Part shown: positions 11,001 to 26,000 of the stretch, one piece after another
Layout of the letters: every line of letters begins with the position of its first letter
Position numbering within the stretch: position 1 is the stretch's first letter
NCBI GenBank assembly: GCA_018350325.1
Contig: JAEVLN010000006.1
Location: 1,812,693 to 1,876,692 of the forward strand
Origin: Globodera rostochiensis
Lineage: Eukaryota; Nematoda; Chromadorea; Rhabditida; Heteroderidae
Direction of reading: 5' to 3'
DNA: 64,000 nt
Notes under the pieces: model-generated
What the model was told of the DNA's origin: nothing
What the model saw: the letters and a program-made list of their open reading frames with translations, nothing else
The model's database searches: none
Program-made: the position numbers and the translations under genes

Positions 11001-14000
11001 AGTGTGTTAACAAACAAGTTGGCAAAATGGACAAAAAAAATGTTTAAAAAAAATTACAGAATGCTCTACCCGACATTATACCAATTTTCGTGCATGTTAG
11101 ACCTTCGCTTTTTTCCATTTGACATTCAGGTATAGTTAAAGGATTAAAATTTTAGGCCTATTAAGGCTTAAATAGGACCCTTCGGGGGTAGGAAAGTCGG
11201 GGGCCGCGGGGTGGGGGGGGCAATTCTTCGGGGGGCGTCCGGGGAATCGCCCTAAACTTAAACCAAAATGCCATAATATGTAAAACAAAATTCTTGGGGA
11301 CGCTATTTTTTAATGTTTCTCTCTATAAACTTTTTTGTTATAAAAACCCAATTTGTTAGCTCTGAATAATTTTAGATTTTAATTTAAATAGGTGAACCTA
11401 AAAGTCTAATAAAGTTTTGGAGAAGTGCCGTATTTTACACGCTTCCTGTCTGAATCCCCCCCCCCCCTCCCCCGCCCGAATCCCCCCACAGCCAAATGTG
11501 TCTCGAATCCCCTCAACGTCTTAGGCTAAATCTAAGTTTGGTCTAAGCTAAGCTAAAGCTTAGGCTAGCCTAGGCTTGGCCTAAGCCTAACAAACCCCAA
11601 GCCAGGGTGGGGCTTAGGCTAAGTTAGGCTTAATCTTAGCTTAAGTACGGGATTGAATCAGCCATCGTGGGGAGATTCAGACCGGTAGCCATTTTACAAC
11701 AACAACAAAAAAAGAAATTCAACTTAAAGCATTGCGTGATGATGTTCGGCAGTTGGTCGCACGACAACACGCACATTGACTACTTTGCCTACGATGACAT
11801 TGCGGACGCGGTGATGCCCAGCCTGCGCGCGGACGGCACACCGCTGCACGACGCGACCGCAAGCGGCGGCATCAGCATTGAGCATTGCATACCCAACGAG
11901 GGCTGGAACATCCTCTCCACCGAAGGTGGTGTGCCATGACCCTCCTAATTTGGAGCAGAGTAGGTAGGGACCGGGATTTTTTGGGAAAAACCGGGACCGG
12001 GATTTTTTGGGAAAAGCCAGAACCGGGATTGAGAAATTTAAAAAAACGGGATTTATAAGGGGGAAATTCAGTCCCAAAATTGAAGACTTCAGTCCCAGTC
12101 CCGGTCCCGAGAGCTACTCTAATTTGGAGTGGTGCCAAAACATTGTGGGGTGGTTCGGGGGATTGGACAAGCTTTAAGGAATGTCAAAATTTTGAGAATC
12201 TCGACAAAATCTCGTAACCCGAAGCTGGCGGGTGCTGCTGTTCTGTGCCAATTCCATATGCTTTATAATTCAAAAAAAAACTTTATTTAAGCGAATTAAA
12301 ATGGAATTTTATTTTTAAAAAAAAATGTAAATTTTTTTTTGCTTAAATTTATTTAGTGTCGAGGCGTGAAGTCAAATTCCATTGCTGCGAAAATGTGAGC
12401 AAAACCTCAAAAATTTATTATTGTTTTTTTTTAAATTTTTCTACTCAGAATTACACGCTGCTGGAGTTCAAGCTGCACATTCAGCGAAGGCCACTCTTCT
12501 ACTTAGTCAATCTGATCATACCAACTTCGATCATCAGTAATTCCATGAAGAAAAAATTTAAACATTTTACCGACTAATCGAAAAGTGGACATTTTGTCGA
12601 CTAATCGAAAATTGGACATTTACCGATTGAGGAAAATACGGGATAAACAGAGCCCTACATAAATAGACTCGTTTTCCCCATTGTCGATGATTTGATGCGG
12701 CACTGATCGGCTAAACGTCCGAATTTCAATGTGTCGACAAAATGTCCAAGTGACGAAATGTCATGGAGCTATACAAATATTCTTGTCAGCTCTGATCGCT
12801 ATTGTGGGCTTCTTCAGCTCTTCGACAGTAAACGATGTTCGAGACGAGAAGATTAGCCTCGGGATCACTACGGTAATTTTTTAAATCTTTTTTTTTGTCT
12901 TAATAAAAATGTGTTCAGCTGCTTTCGATGTCCATTCTGATCTTCATGGTGTCCGATCAGATGCCCTCCACCAGTTCGTTCATCCCGCTGATCGGCTGGT
13001 TCTACACATCCATGATGGCCTTAATTTCGGGTGCGAAAAATTATATATTTATATATCAAAGACCGGACGGGAATTTTTCGGCATCCGGACGAGCCTTTTT
13101 TTGAATTGTTTAAAATTGATTGAGATCGGTATTTGTCGGCATTTTAAGCCGGAATTCCAACCGACCATTTTTGGGGGGAATTTCGGCATTGTGCCGGGAT
13201 CCTCCCCAAAAAATCGGTTGAGACCAGCATCTGTCGGCATCCCAAGCCATAATCCCGACCGATTATTTTGGGGGAATTTCGGCATTGTGCCGGGATCGAA
13301 ATTTAGCCGGGATCCTCCCAACAAATCGGTTTCCTGTTGCTGTTGCGCTACAGTAGCAACTAAAAATTTTAAACTAAAAAATTTCTGTCCCCTTAAATAG
13401 GCGGCACTCTTGCGGCTTCGTTTGTCATTTATGTGCAGAAAATGGGCATCATCGGTACGTTTTTGCTGGCCATGTTTTGAATGTTTTTTTAATTTGGCAT
13501 TTTACATTAACAAATGAGTAGAGCCGGTGCCGAGATCTTGGGAACACCCGAGACTAGGGGACCAAGAAAAGTGCCCGCCAAATGGCGCCGGGGACTAATG
13601 CCCAAAACTAGAGTAGGTCGGGACCGGGATTTTTGGGAAAGCCCGGGACCGGGATTCTTGAGAAAACCCGGGACCGGGATTCTTGGGAAAACTCGGGACC
13701 GGGATTTTTGGGAAACTCGGGACCGGGATTTTTGGAAAAACCGGGACCGGGATTCTTGGGAAAACTCGGGACCGGGATTTTTGGGAAAACCCGGGACCGG
13801 GATTTTTGGAAAAACCGGGACCGGGATTCTTGGGAAAACTCGGGACCGGGATTTTTGGAAAAACCGGGACCGGGATTCTTGGGAAAACTCGGGACCGGGA
13901 TTTTTGGAAAAACCGGGACCGGGATTCTTGGGAAAACTCGGGACCGGGATTTTTGGGAAAACTCGGGACCGGCATTTTTGGGAAAACTCGGGACCGGGAT

Positions 14001-17000
14001 TTTTGGGAAAGCCCGGGACCGGGATTCTTGAGAAAACCCGGGACCGGGATTCTTGGGAAAACTCGGGACCGGGATTTTTGGGAAAACTCGGGACCGGGAG
14101 GAAAAACCCGGGACCGGGATTCTTGGGAAAACTCGGGACCGGGATTTTTGGGAAAACCCGGGATTGAGTCCCGCGCTCTATTCAAATTTTAACGCTAAAA
14201 AATATTTAATTTGTAAAAATTAAAAAGGACAACGCCCGTCACGGAACACAATGCGATGGGCACGTCGGCTGGGCAAAATGGTGTGGATGGAGATGCCGTT
14301 GATGATGAAGCAAGCATATGCCATCAAAGCCAAGGTCAGAGGAGAAGCGGCATAGTTTTTGATGGCACACAATGATTTTTGGCATACAGTTTTGGCCAAA
14401 CTTTTAATTTAGTGTAATTTTTGTTGTGAATAAAAAAGAATTAATTAAATTTAGCATATTTTATTTGTTTAACTCAAAATCCATTTTAGCAAGACAAAAT
14501 TCAAAAAATCCGTCAACATTTGGAGCTGCAACATCAGAAGCTGCTTCGTCGTCAACAACAGAATGGCGGTCCAAATCAACAGTTTGGCGGCGGCACTTCG
14601 CCCAGAAAGCCCACATTTTGGCAACTTCGACCACGCATCGGCGGCACCGGTGCCGGACAACAGCAGAATGAAGCAGCGGTTAGTGCCCTTACAATTTTTT
14701 TTGATTAAAAAATTGATCGGGGACCCTTTTTTATCCCGAGATTTATTTGATCAAGGAAGCAGCATATAGCGTCAAAACCTCGCGGGTACCTCGCGGGTCT
14801 GAAAACTCGCGGGTCGTTTATGATTATGCCGCCCAAAGCCAAAACCTATTGGAGGGGTCAAATCCTTTGATCTTGCCGCCCCAAGTCAAAACCTATTGGA
14901 GGGGTCGGGGTCTTTGACCTTACCGCCACCACCCCAAACCTATTGGACAGGCCGGGTCCGTTGACCAACATTAAACCCAAACCTATGGGAGGGCTCAGAG
15001 GCTTTGAACTTACCGCCACCAGGCCAAAAGCTGGAATCGTCCCGCCAAAAGCGTCCGGGTACCGCCGCCCTTTGATCGTGCCGCCTTCTACCTGATCCCA
15101 AAAGCGAGACATTTCAGTCCCAACCAAAATATCGCGGGGTTAGCGGATTAACACGCAACCCAAAGGAGCCAGAGGGTTGTGAAGGAAACTAATTAATGGC
15201 ATATAAAGAAGGTCGAAGGATGAGATGCCATAGTATGACTCGGGTATGACAAAATTATGACTATTGTATGACATATTATTACAAAGTATGACAAACAGTA
15301 TGACTATGCATGACAAATAGATGACAAAGGACGACTAAGGCATGATAAAAGGTGAACATTTATGACAAACTGTATGACAAAATATAACATACGCATGAAC
15401 CGACAAAAGATGACAATAATATGACAAAACGACTATGATGAGGATGACAGCGATTGTTAATGATGATTAGGCAATTCTCTTTTATTACCCGTACTATCGA
15501 TAAGAGGTCTACAAAACCTATCTAGTCTGTGAATTTTGATCTATTTTTTACAAACGATATACCATTTGAAAGAGGAGATTTTTCTGTACAAAATTACTTC
15601 ACAAATATTTTTTTAAGGACCAGTGAACGATACTATGTGCTCTCAATGTAAAAAGGGTATTGGCGCCTAATCCAAAATTCAACTTTTTCCTCCCCCATCC
15701 CTCAAGGTCATTACGGCACCTGTCAATCAAACTTTCGCCGCGCACCTAAAATTTTCCCCCCTCACCTGTCAATCAAACTTCCGCGCTCAAATTTTGCAAC
15801 AAAAACATTTATAAATCGATTTTCACTTTTGTGACATTTTTAAATAGGGCATAATGTGATAGTACATTTCATGAATTTCTTCAATATTTTTTCCACCAGT
15901 TATTACCACTTTGCCCGTCCAAAAAATTAAGGCAGTCAATCTTTTTCCTCTTTTGTAGTTTAGACCACAAAAAATTTCAGGCTCATAAAAACTATTTTTA
16001 GAACGAATTTTACGAAATTCATTTAGATCAATTTCACGCCCAAAATTGAAAGAGGTAACAACATTTTCAATTAAATGTCCTGTGTAAAAGACACTGGGAC
16101 ATCCCGAGAATTTAATAATTTCAACAAATTTTCTTATCGCTTTTTCGCAATCTTCCAAATTTTTGGTACCCAAACAAATTATTTTTCCAGACTCCCATAA
16201 TAAAGCAGTGGATTCCGGACACGCCGCACCCGGATGAGCGAATGAGAGATGCAATTGAGGACATGATTAAAAAGGCCTTCAAGCGGACGGAGGAGACAAT
16301 GGGGCGAAAAGTGAAAATGTTTGGAGTGTCACTGACGGGAGCTGGACTTGGATACCCGGTATATTTGCCGTACCGGCCATACCCGCAAAACAATGCGGAC
16401 GTCGTAATGGAGGAAATCAACAAGTTGGGGCAAAGCGGAGGAGAAAGCGGAGATGACATGCGGACGATTTTACTTTCTCATCCTGTGCAGATGAATGTTA
16501 CATGTGTGGCGCTACCAGCTGGAGAGGGTCCTAGAAATATTCACAAATTCGATTATGGATTCAAGGAGCATCAGCGGATACAGTGAGTTTAATTAAAAAT
16601 AAAAAATAAAAAAAAAATTTCCACTAAAGGAATTATTGAACAAATTATTATTTAGGATCAACAATAACGACAAATTTTGCTTATTTTATGCGTTGGCGGC
16701 ATCGAGGAATTATTTGGAGCTGCATGTTGACAGCTTTAGAAGATTTATGAACAACAATAGTCGTCAAAGGGAGGCAGCATTTGAAATTTTGCACAAATCC
16801 GGAGTTAACAATATGGAAAATGGCTATGGAGTTGAGGAACTATCGGCAGTTCAGAAATATTGGGTAATAATAATAAAAAAAATATTTCAGAAAAATATTT
16901 TATTATTTTCAGGATCAAACTTTTCCGGGAAAATACCGAATTGCGGCTTTTGAAAAATGCGTTGACCCGAGGAAATCAATTCGTGTGCTTTGGAAGGGAC

Positions 17001-20000
17001 CGATCGGGCGTGAAGCGGTTGTGCCGATATTTTTGGAGAACAATCATTGGGATGGACTGAAGAATTTCGTGTGTTTCTTCAACAAAGGGAAGAAGTTCTG
17101 TATCGACTGTGAATGTTTTTACGACCAAGCCGTTTATCATACGTATGAGTGCAAGGCCAGATGTTACTATTGCAACCGAGTCGGAGGAATGCCATGCACC
17201 AAGGAACGAGAAGTGAAAATTGAATGCCCAAAATGCCGCCGATACTTTTACAACCAACAATGCTACAATTACCATCAAGGACATCAAACGTGCAACATAT
17301 GGAAGCGGTGCGTAGAGTGCAACAAGACTTATTTGTTCAATCCGAAGAGTAAACATGAATGTGGGGAGACTTTTTGCCGATCATGTGGGATTTGCCATGA
17401 CCCGAAGCGAGGATGTTATATTAAGCCGATCGGGGTCAAAGAGGAGAAGGATATTTACAGGATCGTTGTTTGGGTAAGTCAATATTAAGCCCGATAGCAG
17501 GAAAACTTTCATAAATTTTAGGATTCGGAGACGTCACAGGACAAGACTTATAAGGGGGAGCAAAAGGAACATGTGATTAATTACATCTCGGCGAGAGTGA
17601 CGTGTACCGAGTGCTGCGATGATGGAAGCAGGAAGGACTGTCGGATTTGTGGGACTGAAAGAGAAAAGGACTGGAGCGAGGCGGAAGGACGTGAGCCCAT
17701 CAAGGAATTTTTGGAGTGGATTTTGTCGGCATTTGATAAGAAGTTCAAGACCTACTTATTCGCACATAACGCCGGGAGATTTGATGGACATTTTGTGTTT
17801 AACTACCTTTGCCGAGCCGGGAAGAGCCCGATGCCGCTGATTAATGGGTTGAAGATTTACGAATTTACGGTGCAAAACTCGAAGAAACATTCAATACTGA
17901 TATGGAGGGACTCATGCTTGCTGATGCCGGTGAAACTTGAAGCGATGAAGGCGACCTTTAATTTGGACTGCGAGGAGAAGCCTTTCTTTCCGTACTACTA
18001 CAACAAGAAGGAGAATTACAACACCCATCTGCCCCATTTACCACCCATGGAAGACTATTCGCCCGGATCAATGAAGAAGGAAAAGTTCGACAAATTTGAG
18101 AAATGGTACAACGAGAATAAGGAGACGCCGTTTTATTTGCCCGAGGAGCTGAAGAATTATTGCCGAAACGACACGGAGATTTTGCTGAAGTCGATAGTTG
18201 AGTTCCGGAGGATCTTGGTCAAGGACATTACGGGAGGATTTGACCCGCTGCCTAGGAGTTGCACGAATGCGGGAGTTGCAATGAGTATTTTTAAGGCCAT
18301 GTTTTTACAAGAGGAGGAGTTATCGATTGTGCCGGAGCGGGGATATGAGCGCTGTGACAGAGCCAGCGTTATCGCCATCAAATATTTGGAGTGGAGGAGC
18401 AAAAGAGACAATGTGGACATTAAGCATGCGGGCAATGGGCGAGAGGAACAAGTCGGGAAATACAAATTGGACGGATATATTGAGAAAGGGAGCGGCAGAG
18501 GAAAATGTATTGAAGTTATGGGCTGTTTCATCCATGGATGTTTGAAATGTTATGACCCGACGGCGCAATTGATTGGAGGACGATCAGCGCAAGATTTGTA
18601 TGATGAAACGCAGGAGCGGTTGGCTGAGCTGCGGGAAACGCTGGATGTTGAGGAAGTCTGGACTTGTGAAATTGAGCAAGAGTTGAAAAGGGACGCCGAG
18701 ATGAAAGAATTTTTCGAGGACAGAGGGAACGAGAAGGGGCCAATTGACCCGAGGATGGCATATGCGGGAGGGAGGACGGGACCGATGAAGTTATTTGCAA
18801 AGGCCGATGAGAAGAAGAAGATTTCCGTCTACGATATTGTGAGCTTGTACCCGGCAGTGAACTACGAAACAGCATACCCGACACGACTGCCCGACATTAT
18901 TATACCGACGCGAGATGAAATTGAAGTGAGCTGGACAAAGCCGGATGATTTAAAGTACAAGGGGCTGTACAAAGTGAGGGTCAACCCGCCGAAGGGGCTT
19001 AGAATACCGGTGTTGCAGTTGAAGTGTGATGAGAGATTATTGTTTCCGCTGTGTTGGAGGTGCGCATCAAGCTTTAAGAAGGAGAATACGAGATGTGAAT
19101 ACAAGTGCCCCCATGATGAATGTCAGAGGAGATATGTTGCCACGTATACAAGTGTTGAATTGGTAAGAAAAAAAATTTATAAAATAATTTGGTTAATAAA
19201 AATGTTTTTAGGCAAAGGCGTTGGAAAGCGGATACACAGTGGACAGATTTTATAGGGCGTGGCACTATGGGGAGGATAACGACGATTTGTTCAAGGGCTA
19301 TGTGAGATTGTTTTTAAAATTGAAGGAGGAGGCAAGCGGTTTTCCGAAAGGCGTTGAGACAGGGGAGCAGAAGAGGAAATGGGCAGAAGAATATAAGGAA
19401 AAGTATGGTATTGAGATAGAATTGGAAAGTGTGAAAAAGAATGCGGGCCTGCGGTACACCAGTAAGCTGATGTTGAATAGTTTATGGGGGAAATTTTCAA
19501 TGAGAAATTCGTTGTGCAAGAATAAAGTTATCGAGAAAGCCCGCACCTGTTAGCCGCATTATTTTTTGTAAAAGTTCCAGGGGAAAATAATTTCGATGAC
19601 CACTATTTTGGTACATCACTATGCAAGGGAATTGCGGGTAGTGTAATTTGACTCGATGTTTGGAATACAAATGCTGTTCTACTGTTACGCCAAGGAATCC
19701 CCTGTATGCAAATAATCTATTTGCGCCAATAAAAGTGATGTTGTCCGGTGAAACAAATTGATTATGCCTAAGATGTATGGTGACCAGCGGGTTATTTCTT
19801 AAAAAAATTTAGATTTTCAACTCTTCTTCTCTTTAAAATTTGTGCAAGCTCATGGGGCTCACACCTATTAAATTCGCATAAAATTTCAATGAGACTGGTG
19901 CACATTTTGCATAGGCGGTCGTATTGTCTCAATCACTTCCTTATATACTCTTCATCATCCATCCGATGCATAAAACATAGAGAGCGTGCAAGAGGTGAAA

Positions 20001-23000
20001 TCGGGTGAAAGTTCACCTAAAAGTATATAGGAAATGCGTTTTAGTGGTAATAAGCAAAATAAAAAAAAAAGCCAAAATTAAACACAATAAAAGATGGCAA
20101 AGGGAAATTTTCCGATGGTTATCGATATTATAAACATGGGATCTTTAATCAAATTAAAGTTATCAAAATATCCTTCCCGCCTAGCAAGATAGTCTAGAGC
20201 TCTTTTTTATATATGGTTTTTATAATTTATGTAATTAGAGTCCTTGCAATTGTTATAGGTTTATGCTGGGGATTTAAATAACATTTTTTAATAAATCTTA
20301 CCTATAACCGTGCCCATAAAGTTGGCTTAAATAATTTTTTCTTCTGCTGCAATGTTCCGGTAGTTTTTATAGGTTTGTCTTTAATAAAAACTTTTTTACC
20401 TTTTCCCCACATAGCGCTTGACCTGTCAACCATTTCTCGTATTGTCGCATCTTTTAAGAGCCGATCTTTTAGAAATTTCGCTCCCCTGGGTGTGTCGCCC
20501 TCTTCTCCAGAGAGATATCTCAAGACGTTCTTATAATTACTATCATCAATTGGCAGATTTTTATTAGATTGAACTTTCCCCATTGCCGTTATTTTAAATG
20601 TATCCTTGTTTTTAGATACATAATTAAAAAGATCCCCCAACAATTTTGGGTGAAAGATCGTAGTACTGCGCAATTTTTCGGGTGTTTGAAAAATCGATGA
20701 TGTTTCTGAAGAAACTGGGGACTGTAATTCGGATGGAATTTCCTCTTCAATTAATGAAGATTGGATAAACTCCCTCGTATTTTCATCTCTCAAGTTTTTA
20801 TCAACTTCTTCACTTTCGTTTTCTTCTCTTCTGAGCCTTTTTGTAGGCACTATAAATTTTCTTGGCTCCTCGGTTGCCTGGGTGTTCGTCTGACTAACCC
20901 CCAAATATGGTGCAACATTAGGTGCCGGGTTTTGGTTAACAATCACAACTCTTTGCGGTCTATTATCAACCATTCTTTTTATCATTCTTCGCTCCTTATA
21001 GAGCCAACTATGCCTACTCGCTTTAAGATCTTCACTTATTGTCGGATCTTGTAAATTTTGCATAATCTTTGCATCCAACATGGCCTTTTCATTTTGCAAA
21101 TAGTCTCCGCCCCTGAGCGAATTTAATAATGCATGGTATTCCGCCTCCGGGACCAGTGTCATTTTCTTTGCAAACTTCATCATACGATTTTTTCTAACAA
21201 ATCTTGAGCTAGAACGCTTAAAATCGGGACTAAAATCGCTCCTAATGCTATTCCGCTTCCCTGCTGTATCGCCTTTCTTGCTGTTTTTTCTGATTTTGAT
21301 TTGGCAATGGCTCGATAAAAATCTGCGTACTGGACAAGTTTTTGTTTTTGGCCTTTATTAAGTTTAAAATTAAAACTCAAAATGTTTACACAAATTTCAA
21401 CAATTGCCAAAATTTGATCGGTAGTTGCAGATTCGATTTGCTGTATTATCGCTTACTTGATGACTAAATTGATACATTTCATCATGTTTTGGTATTTGAA
21501 TTTGCTTTTATAGGTTTCAAATGGTTCACCTTTTTCCCCTAATATTCTCACACTTTTGACTGTCATTCTCGGTTTTCTTCTACTGTTTTTCATATTTGTC
21601 ATTCTATTCTCATTTCAGACCATCAATTTTCGTGTTGTAATTTTTTTTTTCTTTGTTTTCAACAAACTCTACTTTTTTCCATATTTTAAATTTTTATTTT
21701 TTCCTTAAAATTATCAAGTTATTTTTCGATTGGTACATATCTGCATCACAAGTCTTTTTTTTAGCGGGCGGATAATGAAAAGTTCAATGTTTGTTTTGGT
21801 GGTCAATTTTCTGTGGTAGGTTCAATTTAGTGTTGAGTGGGAGTGGAAGATGGCAGTGGTAGACTTTCGTTTTGGTTAACCAGTACAAAATTTCCTCTGT
21901 TTAAGTCTGACATTTTATGCATACTACCCCCATAAAACACATGTCCTTTTAGGTGAAATTTCACCCGATTTCACCTCTTTTCACCAATTTGTGTTACACT
22001 TTTTCACCTATTTTATGTTCACCTCTTTTCACCTATTTTATGTTCACCTCTTTTCACCTATTTTATGTTCACCTCTTTTCAAAATTTGTTGAAATTATTA
22101 AATTCTCGGGATGTCCCAGTGTCTTTTACACAGGACATTTAATTGAAAATGTTGTTACCTCTTTCAATTTTGGGCGTGAAATTGGTCTAAATGAATTTCG
22201 TAAAATTCGTTCTAAAAATAGTTTTGAGCCTGAAATTTTTTGTGGTCTAAACTACAAAAGAGGAAAAAGATTGACTGCGTTAATTTTTTGGACGGGCAAA
22301 GTGGTAATAACTGGTGGAAAAAATATTGAAGAAATTCATGAAATGTACTATCACATTATGCCCTATTTAAAAATGTCACAAAAGTGAAAATCGATTTATA
22401 AATGTTTTTGTTGCAAAATTTGAGCGCGGAAGTTTGATTGACAGGTGAGGGGGGAAAATTTTAGGTGCGCGGCGAAAGTTTGATTGACAGGTGCCGTAAT
22501 GACCTTGAGGGATGGGGGAGGAAAAAGTTGAATTTTGGATTAGGCGCCAATACCCTTTTTACATTGAGAGCACATAGTATCGTTCACTGGTCCTTAAAAA
22601 AATATTTGTGAAATAATTTTGTACAGAAAAATCTCCTCTTTCAAATGGTATATCGTTTGTAAAAAATAGATCAAAATTCACAGACTAGATAGGTTTTGTA
22701 GACCTCTTATCGATAGTACGGGTAACAAAAGAGAATTGCCTAATCATCATTAACAATCGCTGTCATCCTCATCATAGTCGTTTTGTCATATTATTGTCAT
22801 CTTTTGTCGGTTCATGCGTATGTTATATTTTGTCATACAGTTTGTCATAAATGTTCACCTTTTATCATGCCTTAGTCGTCCTTTGTCATCTATTTGTCAT
22901 GCATAGTCATACTGTTTGTCATACTTTGTAATAATATGTCATACAATAGTCATAATTTTGTCATACCCGAGTCATACTATGGCATCTCATCCTTCGACCT

Positions 23001-26000
23001 TCTTTATATGCCATTAATTAGTTTCCTTCACAACCCTCTGGCTCCTTTGGGTTGCGTGTTAATCCGCTAACCCCGCGATATTTTGGTTGGGACTGAAATG
23101 TCTCGCTTTTGGGATCAGGTAGAAGGCGGCACGATCAAAGGGCGGCGGTACCCGGACGCTTTTGGCGGGACGATTCCAGCTTTTGGCCTGGTGGCGGTAA
23201 GTTCAAAGCCTCTGAGCCCTCCCATAGGTTTGGGTTTAATGTTGGTCAACGGACCCGGCCTGTCCAATAGGTTTGGGGTGGTGGCGGTAAGGTCAAAGAC
23301 CCCGACCCCTCCAATAGGTTTTGACTTGGGGCGGCAAGATCAAAGGATTTGACCCCTCCAATAGGTTTTGGCTTTGGGCGGCATAATCATAAACGACCCG
23401 CGAGTTTTTAGACCCGCGAGGTTTGTTTGGGACTGAATTAACCGCTCGCTTTTGGGCGGTGAGTTCAAAGGGCTGGACCCCTTCAATAGGTTTGGGTTTG
23501 GGCGGCATGGTCAAAAACGACCCGCGAGTTTTTAGACCCGCGAGGTACCCGCGAGGTTTTGACGCTATATGCTGCTCAAGGAGAAATAAAAATTTAATTT
23601 AATTTCGGCACAATTTTCACCGCCATTCTCCAGCAGCAGATGACTGTAATGACGGGCCTTGGCACAGCGTTTGGCCGCTACCGTACACAGACAAGCAGCA
23701 GTGCCGGTGCCGGTACCGGTACTGTAAGCGACTTGGCCAGTGGCACAGCGTTTGTGGGCCCAACGCTTGGCCATGCGATGAGTCTGCTGATGCCCCGGGG
23801 GAATGGGGGCGCGTCACGTGGAGCTGAGAGTCCGCCTCTCGCGCACAAAGTGTCGCAGTCCATCAGTGGGGTTTTTACAGTAAAATTGTGTAAAATAATA
23901 AAGAAACTGACTGATCAGCAGATCAAGAGTGATCAGGGGGTTCATTGAAAAAAATGTTTGATCAAAAATTGGCGAAATTTTACTCAAGATGAAGAAGCGT
24001 CGGATGATTTGCATGAAGAAGGTGAATCCAGCAGCGACATGGAGACGACCAGCTTGCTCAGTGCCAAAGATGCACCACCATCGGGCACCGTCAGCAAAAA
24101 GCATTCGGGCACTGTGCCAACGCCGGAGGGTATCGCCATGATCGACATGGAGGAGGAGCAGCACGAGCAGCAGCAGCAGATGGAGAAAGACAGCTTAAAA
24201 AAGAGTACCAGCATCCGGTCCAGGGTCGAATTGACGGGCCAAAACGGACCCGTGGTTGAATGACAAAATTTTTGGTTTTAAAATTCAAAAACAAAAATCA
24301 GGAAACTGGAACGCTAAGGCCTGTGCGAAAAGTTACCACAAATTTACCAATGGACCATTCGCCATCGCCTCAACCACCGTACACCCACCAAACCCATTAT
24401 CCTCCACAGCAAAACGACGCCTACAGTAATGCGATGGCCGACAATACCGTACTGTCTATCCACTAGTGATGCACGAGACCCAAAATTTCCCAATACTCGA
24501 GACTCGATACCGAGACCGAGACTTGACCCCGAGATTCGATACCGAGACCGAGACTTGACCCCGATACTCGATACCGAGACTTCACCCCGATACTCGATAC
24601 CGAGACCGACCAAAAACTCGAGACTTTTCTCGAGTCGATACTCGATACCGAGACTCTCGTGCATCACTACTATCCACCATTGGTGGGCACAAATATAAAT
24701 TAAACAAAAAGTTTTCAGCCAATGAACCTGGAAAACCCATTGGTGGCCAACGTGGCGTGTGTTGAGCCGCTGAAGCAGTGGGCCCAACAAATGTTGGAAC
24801 GGCAGCGCGAGTTGGAGCGCCAGATGGGACTGAATGCTGCGGCGCGCAAACGGCACGGTGGCAAGGGCCCAGCACCGCTGCACACACGGCGCTCAACCTC
24901 GTACCAGTCAATGGCGGATTTATACGGTAAGATAATGGGCGAGTTTATACAATTACGGTAAAAAATGGCGCATACGGTAATAAATAGTGGGAATTTATAC
25001 GGTAAAAAAATGGCGCATTTATACGGTAATAAATAGGGGAATTTATACGGTAATAAATGGGCGAATTTATACGGTAAGAAAATAGGCGAATTTATGCGGT
25101 AAGAAAAATGCGCGAATCGGGCCGGATTATCCCGGTTTTTGGAATCCCGATCCCGGTCCCGGTTAATTTTGTCTCACCATTGACCATTACAAAAAAATTT
25201 TTCCGCTATTGTCAATCCCGATTAATCCCGATCCCGGTTTTAAAAAAAGCGAAATCCCGATCCCGGTCCCGATTCAACATGCTGATCCCGATCCCGGCTT
25301 TCACGATCCCGGTCAATCCCGATCCCGGTTTTTACCAAAAATCCCGATCCCGGCCAACTCTAATTTTGTGTGAAATGGGGCGGCAATATCATAAAGGAAT
25401 TTTTATTTACTTATACAATAAGAAAAGTAAATGTTTTTTTTTTAAATTTTTTTAGCCGCCTCAATGTTGCCGACACCAGCGGAGCCCGCGGCGTTTGGTG
25501 GCGGCGGCGGTGGCACTTCATCCGCTGGCGGCACCGCTCCGACGGACACCGGCACAACGCTGGCGGAGGCCAGTGCCACGTTGGCCGCGCTGCATCCGCA
25601 AGTGCAGCGGAATTTGGCCGAAATTGAATACGATTGGTACTGTTTTTAACGGGTTTCATAAATTGTCGTAATTTAAAATTTTAGAAAATCAGAGGACCGC
25701 TTTCTTTTTAAGTTCTGATCATTTTTTAGACTCCATTAGCCTAAAGTTCATTTTTTAAAAAAATCTGATCATTGATTTTTAGACCCTATTGGCCATAATT
25801 TTATTTTAAATTATTTGGCATTCTGTTGAACGTATTTTCTCTGTTTGCTTCTAATTTATAGGCCTACGTAATTTTATTTTTACAAATTTGTAGGCCTTGA
25901 ATTTTCCCCGAAATTCAGGCTTGCTGCCGTGGTGGAACGAATGTTTTTGATACTGTTTTGGTGAGGAGTACAAAATAGAGACCGGAGACTTGGACCCAAA

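Follow-up and report, generated by a model that had tools for sequence, protein, structure and literature searches.

TATA-binding protein genes carried by Maverick elements of the nematode Globodera rostochiensis

A 64,000-nucleotide stretch of the Globodera rostochiensis genome (contig JAEVLN010000006.1, positions 1,812,693 to 1,876,692 of the forward strand; hereinafter the window) contains a Maverick-type transposon with two truncated copies of a gene for the TATA-binding protein (TBP). Elsewhere in the same genome, Mavericks carry full-length, single-exon TBP genes that are maintained by selection and fall into two very different types, A and B. We propose, with a probability of roughly 60%, that the element TBP seeds RNA polymerase II initiation on the TATA promoters of the element itself, in conjunction with the host TFIIB.

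Full-length, single-exon TBP genes of two types in Mavericks

Both TBP frames of the window are recovered in hidden Markov model searches with the Pfam family PF00352, the left one (15823-16266, minus strand) in two stretches with an E value of 2.7e-30 and the right one (21953-22387, plus strand) in one stretch with an E value of 6.1e-17; in a sequence search of the Protein Data Bank (PDB), the left frame matched yeast TBP (E 3.4e-24). The initial annotation, made from the bare sequence of the window, had taken both frames for TBPs, and these strong matches bear it out. It had also described the copies as separated by one substitution and an in-frame 3-base indel and as mostly devoid of the first TBP repeat. 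By eye, the differences are indeed an Asp/Gly substitution and a missing Tyr. When compared to a close copy of the element on contig C49, the left TBP (15823..16214, minus strand) covers residues ~51-179, beginning at the junction 16214/16215, beyond which the open frame continues to 16266 in foreign sequence, while the right TBP (22081..22387, plus strand) covers residues ~78-179. Since both lack a start codon of their own and have lost most of repeat 1, they are broken remnants unable to make a TBP, and the idea that the window copies themselves are working proteins finds no support.

Intact genes are found in other elements. A protein search of the same genome with the window TBP yielded 86 matches, the best ten of which, beyond the window, are 95-99% identical and lie in open frames of 151-213 amino acids. 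At nine of the ten distinct places examined, we observe a single-exon TBP core of 179 amino acids starting with MQKP; these nine lie within seven elements (on contigs C49, C24, C31 (two), C26, C14 (two), C1 and C3), which confirms that the TBP belongs to the Maverick. At the tenth place, on C45, only 42 amino acids are readable from the same Met. Both PF00352 repeats in the full-length copies score 70-75 bits each (E 4e-19 to 1e-17; curated cut-off 22.9). The ratio of nonsynonymous to synonymous substitution rates (dN/dS), computed on seven of the nine intact places, with only the first TBP of each pair on C31 and C14 used, is 0.04-0.27 in 20 of 21 pairs, the remaining pair giving 0.56 on three changes. 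For example, the TBPs of L002 and L003 differ by 19 synonymous and 3 nonsynonymous changes (Fisher p 5e-11). Thus, the intact type A TBP is under purifying selection. Decayed TBP copies with internal stops are also scattered genome-wide (e.g., C13:492165, C45:448671 and C12:1706870), many of them 53-77% identical to type A, and suggest a long history of TBP-carrying elements in the lineage.

The element on C3, the sole canonical one with both ends compared, spans ~12.8 kb between repeats at ~1065367-1065825 and 1077571-1078207, the outer 108 bp of which are 99% alike and the remainder ~70%. Besides the TBP it has a divergent polymerase gene, and an integrase lies at its far end. The element has a single TBP gene, whose stop codon falls ~20 nt inside the repeat's inner border; this border is not sharp, the similarity in the inner portion of the repeat being only ~70%. 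The view that the TBP gene spans the terminal inverted repeat therefore holds for the rearranged copies in the window and on C31 and C14 but not for the canonical C3 element: the double TBP of the former is read as a rearranged form, and the terminal repeat does not normally include the gene. The copies on C31 (L021) and C14 (L024) are foldback-like elements with a TBP at both ends; in L024 a 349-amino acid frame is likewise duplicated as an inverted pair.

Other Mavericks, L023 on C14 and L029 on C1, have a TBP that differs strongly from type A and is here called type B; L032 on C17 holds a degraded relative. The type B gene pair displays a dN/dS of 0.19 at a synonymous divergence (dS) of 1.05. 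The gene is positioned between the polymerase and ATPase genes and in L023 adjoins a thymidine kinase gene. A further type B-like frame, 41% identical, occurs at C45:1589013. A search with the type B protein recovered 57 proteins. Heterodera trifolii and H. schachtii contribute many of them, at identities of up to 59% and in some cases below 35%, and Globodera pallida contributes two; several of these matches are labelled TATA-box-binding protein at their source. The two G. pallida models, the TBPs of which are 74-75% identical to that of L023, resemble element neighbors fused to a TBP, namely a PAZ-like end in P0030 (by eye) and a thymidine kinase in P0047 (Pfam). For type A we found two metagenomic relatives, both 69% identical, and scans of IMG/VR returned no relative of either type.

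Types A and B are only 22-24% identical to each other, and 39% and 30% identical, respectively, to the host TBP, which is encoded by an ordinary multi-exon gene with an intact core; the host TLF is a separate gene. Trees do not join the two types, with a forced common clade not being rejected (approximately unbiased test, p 0.054), and the TBP of nematode Mavericks was perhaps acquired twice.

Predicted fold, TATA promoters and proposed role

Structure prediction, a check suggested in the initial annotation, was applied to the intact type A protein. The AlphaFold2 (AF2) model (predicted local distance difference test score, pLDDT, 95.1; predicted template modelling score, pTM, 0.85) has the predicted saddle fold of TBP, and Foldseek aligns it to human TBP with template modelling (TM) scores of 0.90 for the DNA-bound structure 1cdw and 0.91 for 7egb. 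We further tabulated key residues, in yeast numbering, for 16 sequences, 3 of type A and 13 of type B (P0053, P0058 and P0061 being omitted); 13 of the 16 rows are database proteins whose genomic context is not established. All site numbers, and the roles of the Asn, Thr, Val and TFIIA-contact positions, are those we take to apply to TBP. The role of the four intercalating phenylalanines is stated in PMC12529657, and that of two glutamates in contacting TFIIB is supported by PMC7221094.

Two of the intercalating sites, F99 and F190, are Phe in 16/16 rows. F116 is Trp in the three type A and Phe in the 13 type B rows, and F207 is Phe in the three type A and one type B row and Tyr in the other 12. 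The central Asn pair, N69 and N159, is likewise retained in 16/16 rows. Type A keeps both TFIIB-contact residues, Glu186 and Glu188, in 3/3 rows, and its basic TFIIA patch K133/K138/K145 is mostly replaced (E/E/E, K/I/Y and F/G/Y). The element TBP has no N-terminal domain.

TATA boxes are seen upstream of the element genes. The type A TBP gene is preceded by CCTATATAAAGG in the four copies in which the compared stretch extends that far; in the three where the distance was measured, the box lies 39 nt upstream of the ATG. On the other side of the TBP-polymerase intergenic stretch, all five aligned copies have CCTTATATAG, an opposite-strand TATA box standing 149 nt before the first ATG on the polymerase side. 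Between these two conserved boxes, L026:6440-7050 and the matching stretches of L027, L034, L035 and L028 contain a variable copy number of a unit like TCATCAATCATTTTTGATTGACAGGTGACA, which might possibly serve as an enhancer, operator or origin. Across 18 genes (8 of type A pooled from three elements and 10 of one type B element), a match to TATA[AT]A[AT] starts at -60 to -31 relative to the ATG in 10 (5/8 type A and 5/10 type B), as compared to at most one gene in each of the remaining 30-nt bins between -150 and +209. The suggestion in the initial annotation that the TBP redirects transcription of the terminal genes is hence too narrow, the boxes not being confined to terminal genes.

These observations offer a basis for predicting the function of the protein. 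An intact element would make a full TBP core, which, in the case of type A, would bind the TATA boxes upstream of the element genes, including its own, and the bound protein would then recruit the host TFIIB and RNA polymerase II for transcription of the element. Use of the host TFIIB is suggested by the retention of both TFIIB-contact glutamates in type A and by the want of a TFIIB homolog at any TBP-carrying Maverick: a genome-wide search with the TFIIB family PF00382 at E<=1 gave eight matches, four over the cut-off (C8, C34, C38 and C4), none of them near such an element. With the TFIIA patch mostly lost and the N-terminal domain missing, dependence on TFIIA and TFIID would be weakened, and the gain to the element might be transcription when host TBP or TFIID is scarce, busy or regulated. 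We tentatively extend this to the notion, for which we see a lesser chance, that these stripped-down TBPs of nematode Mavericks build a private RNA polymerase II initiation complex at the TATA promoters of the elements themselves, with type A using the host TFIIB and escaping TFIID and TFIIA, and the TFIIB surface of type B being re-cut for another partner.

Several findings weigh against initiation on the element's own promoters by its own TBP. At the protein level, the DNA-contact residue T124 is Leu in 3/3 type A rows and V71 is Thr or Ser in 13/13 type B rows. Moreover, the type B TFIIB contacts are changed from Glu to Asp and from Glu to Thr/Ser in 13/13 rows, which makes the step involving host TFIIB weaker for this type. 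At the promoters, the -60 to -31 bin was picked only once these genes had already been inspected, and 8 of the 18 genes, the type B TBP gene among them, have no match in it. Furthermore, among Mavericks counted as TBP-less, a TATA match lies 32-47 nt upstream of the ATG in 5 of the 10 scorable integrase genes. This control comprised 12 integrases from the 38 integrase clusters, of which 2 had no start found, 5 had a TATA match (4 apparently of one lineage) and 5 had only CATAAATAGG; of the eight integrases of TBP-carrying elements, six have a TATA match and two lack a sure start. One control, the integrase at C1:3154556, has the L029 type B TBP at a distance of 14.7 kb and was counted as TBP-less because other polymerase pieces intervene, though a 15-kb rule groups it with that TBP; dropping it changes the control to 5/9. 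Finally, of 38 integrase clusters only 11 lie within 15 kb of a TBP match, which is decayed in some cases and belongs to a neighbor in one, as counted from the first 46 of 110 integrase rows and 41 TBP positions, with the host TBP, host TLF and second-repeat rows omitted. The TATA box as a hallmark of TBP carriers was rejected on the basis of the integrase control. Since TBP-less Mavericks also show such boxes, host TBP may suffice for their use. Most Mavericks of this genome do without a TBP; promoters with a TATA box at this distance seem widespread among them, and some lineages add a TBP of their own.

The main rival, which we regard as rather unlikely, is a host-directed role, wherein the element TBP competes for TATA sites or for TFIIB and dampens or reshapes host transcription, with transcription of the element a side effect. 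The loss of most TFIIA-contact lysines in type A, together with the preservation of its DNA and TFIIB surfaces, is as expected of a partial competitor, and the altered TFIIB contacts of type B point the same way; however, type A retains its TFIIB contacts, and the TATA boxes precede genes of the element, the type A TBP gene itself among them, so that a pure inhibitor would silence these too.

Improbable in our estimate is a role in replication or packaging, in which the DNA-bending TBP fold works at the ends or origins of the element rather than in transcription. The type A TBP gene does adjoin the terminal repeat and the polymerase gene, but that of type B has an interior position in the gene array, with the polymerase on one side and the ATPase on the other, and the set of DNA-contact residues is mostly kept. 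We attach a similarly low likelihood to the element proteins, or at least type B, being TLF/TRF2-type factors, i.e., TATA-independent relatives of TBP. In one tree, type B joins the host TLF at 91/90 support, but the TLF branch is long (2.35) and the join was flagged as possibly false, and type A does not join it. Moreover, the four aromatic sites read Y/F/M/H in the host TLF, so that its intercalating aromatics are changed, unlike those of both element types, and a TLF origin is disfavored by these residues. Mobile elements do capture host genes and the protein is clearly a TBP, but an accidental recent capture of host tbp with no role in the element, a prospect raised in the initial annotation, is rejected as highly improbable in light of the 39% identity to the host TBP, the purifying selection between copies and the wide spread of relatives, namely those of type A at 69% in metagenomes and those of type B at up to 59% in Heterodera.

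The window element and other genes of TBP-carrying Mavericks

The window element spans 14758-23576 (8,819 bp) and is called bounded there because a 6-bp duplication, CAAGGA, flanks both ends (14752..14757 and 23577..23582, by eye); terminal inverted repeats together with a target duplication of this size are a Maverick/Polinton trait (5-6 bp expected). The long inverted repeats begin with AGCAGCATATAGCG at 14758 and finish at 23576, with the left arm, which contains the C-terminal part of the TBP, at 14758..16132 (plus strand) and the right arm at 22081..23576 (minus strand). The arms are 99-100% complementary where they hold the TBP, as against 94% at their outermost end. Alignment to the C49 copy, in which the aligned stretches are 97-99% identical and a short outer stretch 88%, indicates that the TBP end has been duplicated in inverted orientation and that there are two internal deletions, with junctions at 16214/16215 and 19534/19535. 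Just outside the element, 13507-14192 is minisatellite-like sequence, open in several frames on both strands, with repeats like FPKIPVPSFPKNPGP.

Inward of the left TBP, gene or exon pieces that in type A elements lie upstream of the DNA polymerase B (PolB) core occupy 16215..17488 (plus strand). They are followed by PolB pieces at 17522..19553 (plus strand; PF03175, E 2.5e-29), whose end, from the copy alignment, is lost at ~19534/19535. The counterpart of the PAZ-like gene of other copies lies at 19535..19977 (minus strand); it is 94% identical to L035:7995-8432, and its frame is broken, with 19497-19808 being open. Two further frames without a Pfam match, both on the minus strand, are a 350-amino acid open frame common to other type A copies (20302..21354) and the open end of a 125-amino acid gene of other copies (21180..21452). 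An RVE integrase was not seen in the window copy of the element.

Among the other TBP-carrying elements, L023 of type B codes for an rve integrase with a Chromo domain (type A elements have a homologous frame at their far end), and L029 codes for a PolB (PF03175, E 6.3e-18). The A32-type ATPase (Pox_A32) of L023 is barely over threshold, at 22.9 bits against a cut-off of 22.8, and candidates for capsid and protease genes (three type B frames and one type A frame) gave no Pfam match. The thymidine kinase gene adjoining the type B TBP gene (L023:2785-3297, minus strand) matches PF00265 with an E value of 3.9e-39, and both domains are held by a single model, P0047, in G. pallida.

Type A Mavericks additionally possess a stand-alone PAZ-like gene of ~117 amino acids (L035:8013-8363 and L028:8707-9081, both minus strand). 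It matches PF02170 with E values of 2.2e-5 and 6.4e-5 in two element copies, below the Pfam cut-off, while its database relative P0069 reaches 30.1 bits, over the cut-off of 28.8, and its best PDB match is the PAZ region of Argonaute 1 (E 7.6e-4). A seemingly related gene (by eye) precedes the TBP gene in type B elements (L023:3999-4343 and L029:6407-6847, both minus strand), the two pieces having no PAZ match. A structure model of the PAZ-like protein was too poor to be used in support of the fold (pLDDT 61). This gene could encode a decoy for host RNA interference. A PADLOC search with three proteins gave no match at E 0.01.

Relationship to known systems and significance

The elements share with other Mavericks/Polintons the PolB, the RVE integrase with a chromodomain, the A32-type ATPase, the terminal inverted repeats and the 6-bp duplication, and differ from them in the addition of the TBP, the PAZ-like gene (type A) and the thymidine kinase (type B). 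With the host TBP, the TFIID subunit defined by PF00352, the element protein has in common the two-repeat saddle, the intercalating aromatics, the central Asn pair and, in type A, the TFIIB-contact glutamates. It differs in its limited identity (39% for A, 30% for B), its single exon, the lack of an N-terminal domain, the mostly lost TFIIA patch and its being borne by an element.

Many viruses with their own TBP also bring their own polymerase. Large double-stranded DNA viruses offer a parallel in having a virus-type genome with its own TBP, such as B263R of African swine fever virus, which, according to PMC7458399, also encodes its own RNA polymerase and TFIIB. As reported in PMC7221094, nearly all viruses with a TBP-like sequence also have a TFIIB-like one, poxviruses excepted, and viral TBPs diverge at the two TFIIB-contact glutamates. 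In contrast, we found no TFIIB at these Mavericks, and the TFIIB contacts of type A are host-like. A closer functional parallel is ORF24 of Kaposi's sarcoma-associated herpesvirus (KSHV), a late-gene TBP mimic which, as described in PMC12529657, is a viral TBP fold working with the host RNA polymerase II and needing its conserved TBP-like phenylalanines. ORF24 is nonetheless a divergent mimic that forms part of a larger protein and acts with viral partners on a TATT-type promoter, whereas the element TBP is a bare and highly TBP-like core associated with ordinary TATA boxes.

Thus, viral TBPs are already known, while we did not find a Maverick-borne TBP reported in the literature searched. Word searches combining Maverick, Polinton, virophage or adintovirus with TBP gave none by title, with nematode-polinton work not fully covered and a prior mention possible. 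Within Maverick/Polinton/adintovirus papers, TATA and TBP have zero occurrences in PMC11071308, PMC10120064 and PMC11071296, and TATA has zero in PMC8097293; this negative is limited by one paper on vertebrates, PMC7786948, the only one in which the terms Maverick, Polinton and TATA-binding protein occur together.

For database users, these results imply that some cyst-nematode entries named TATA-box-binding protein are likely to be element genes and not host paralogs. That a ~13 kb element would keep a general transcription factor under purifying selection suggests that access to promoter recognition matters to it. An RNA polymerase II-dependent transposon with its own TBP would provide a natural separation-of-function version of the protein, in which the DNA and TFIIB contacts are kept and the TFIIA contacts mostly lost, and a testable case of a selfish element possibly escaping host control of initiation. 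If the reading of a private initiation complex is true, these Mavericks would represent a minimal viral case in which a general transcription factor of the host is replaced and no polymerase is brought along.

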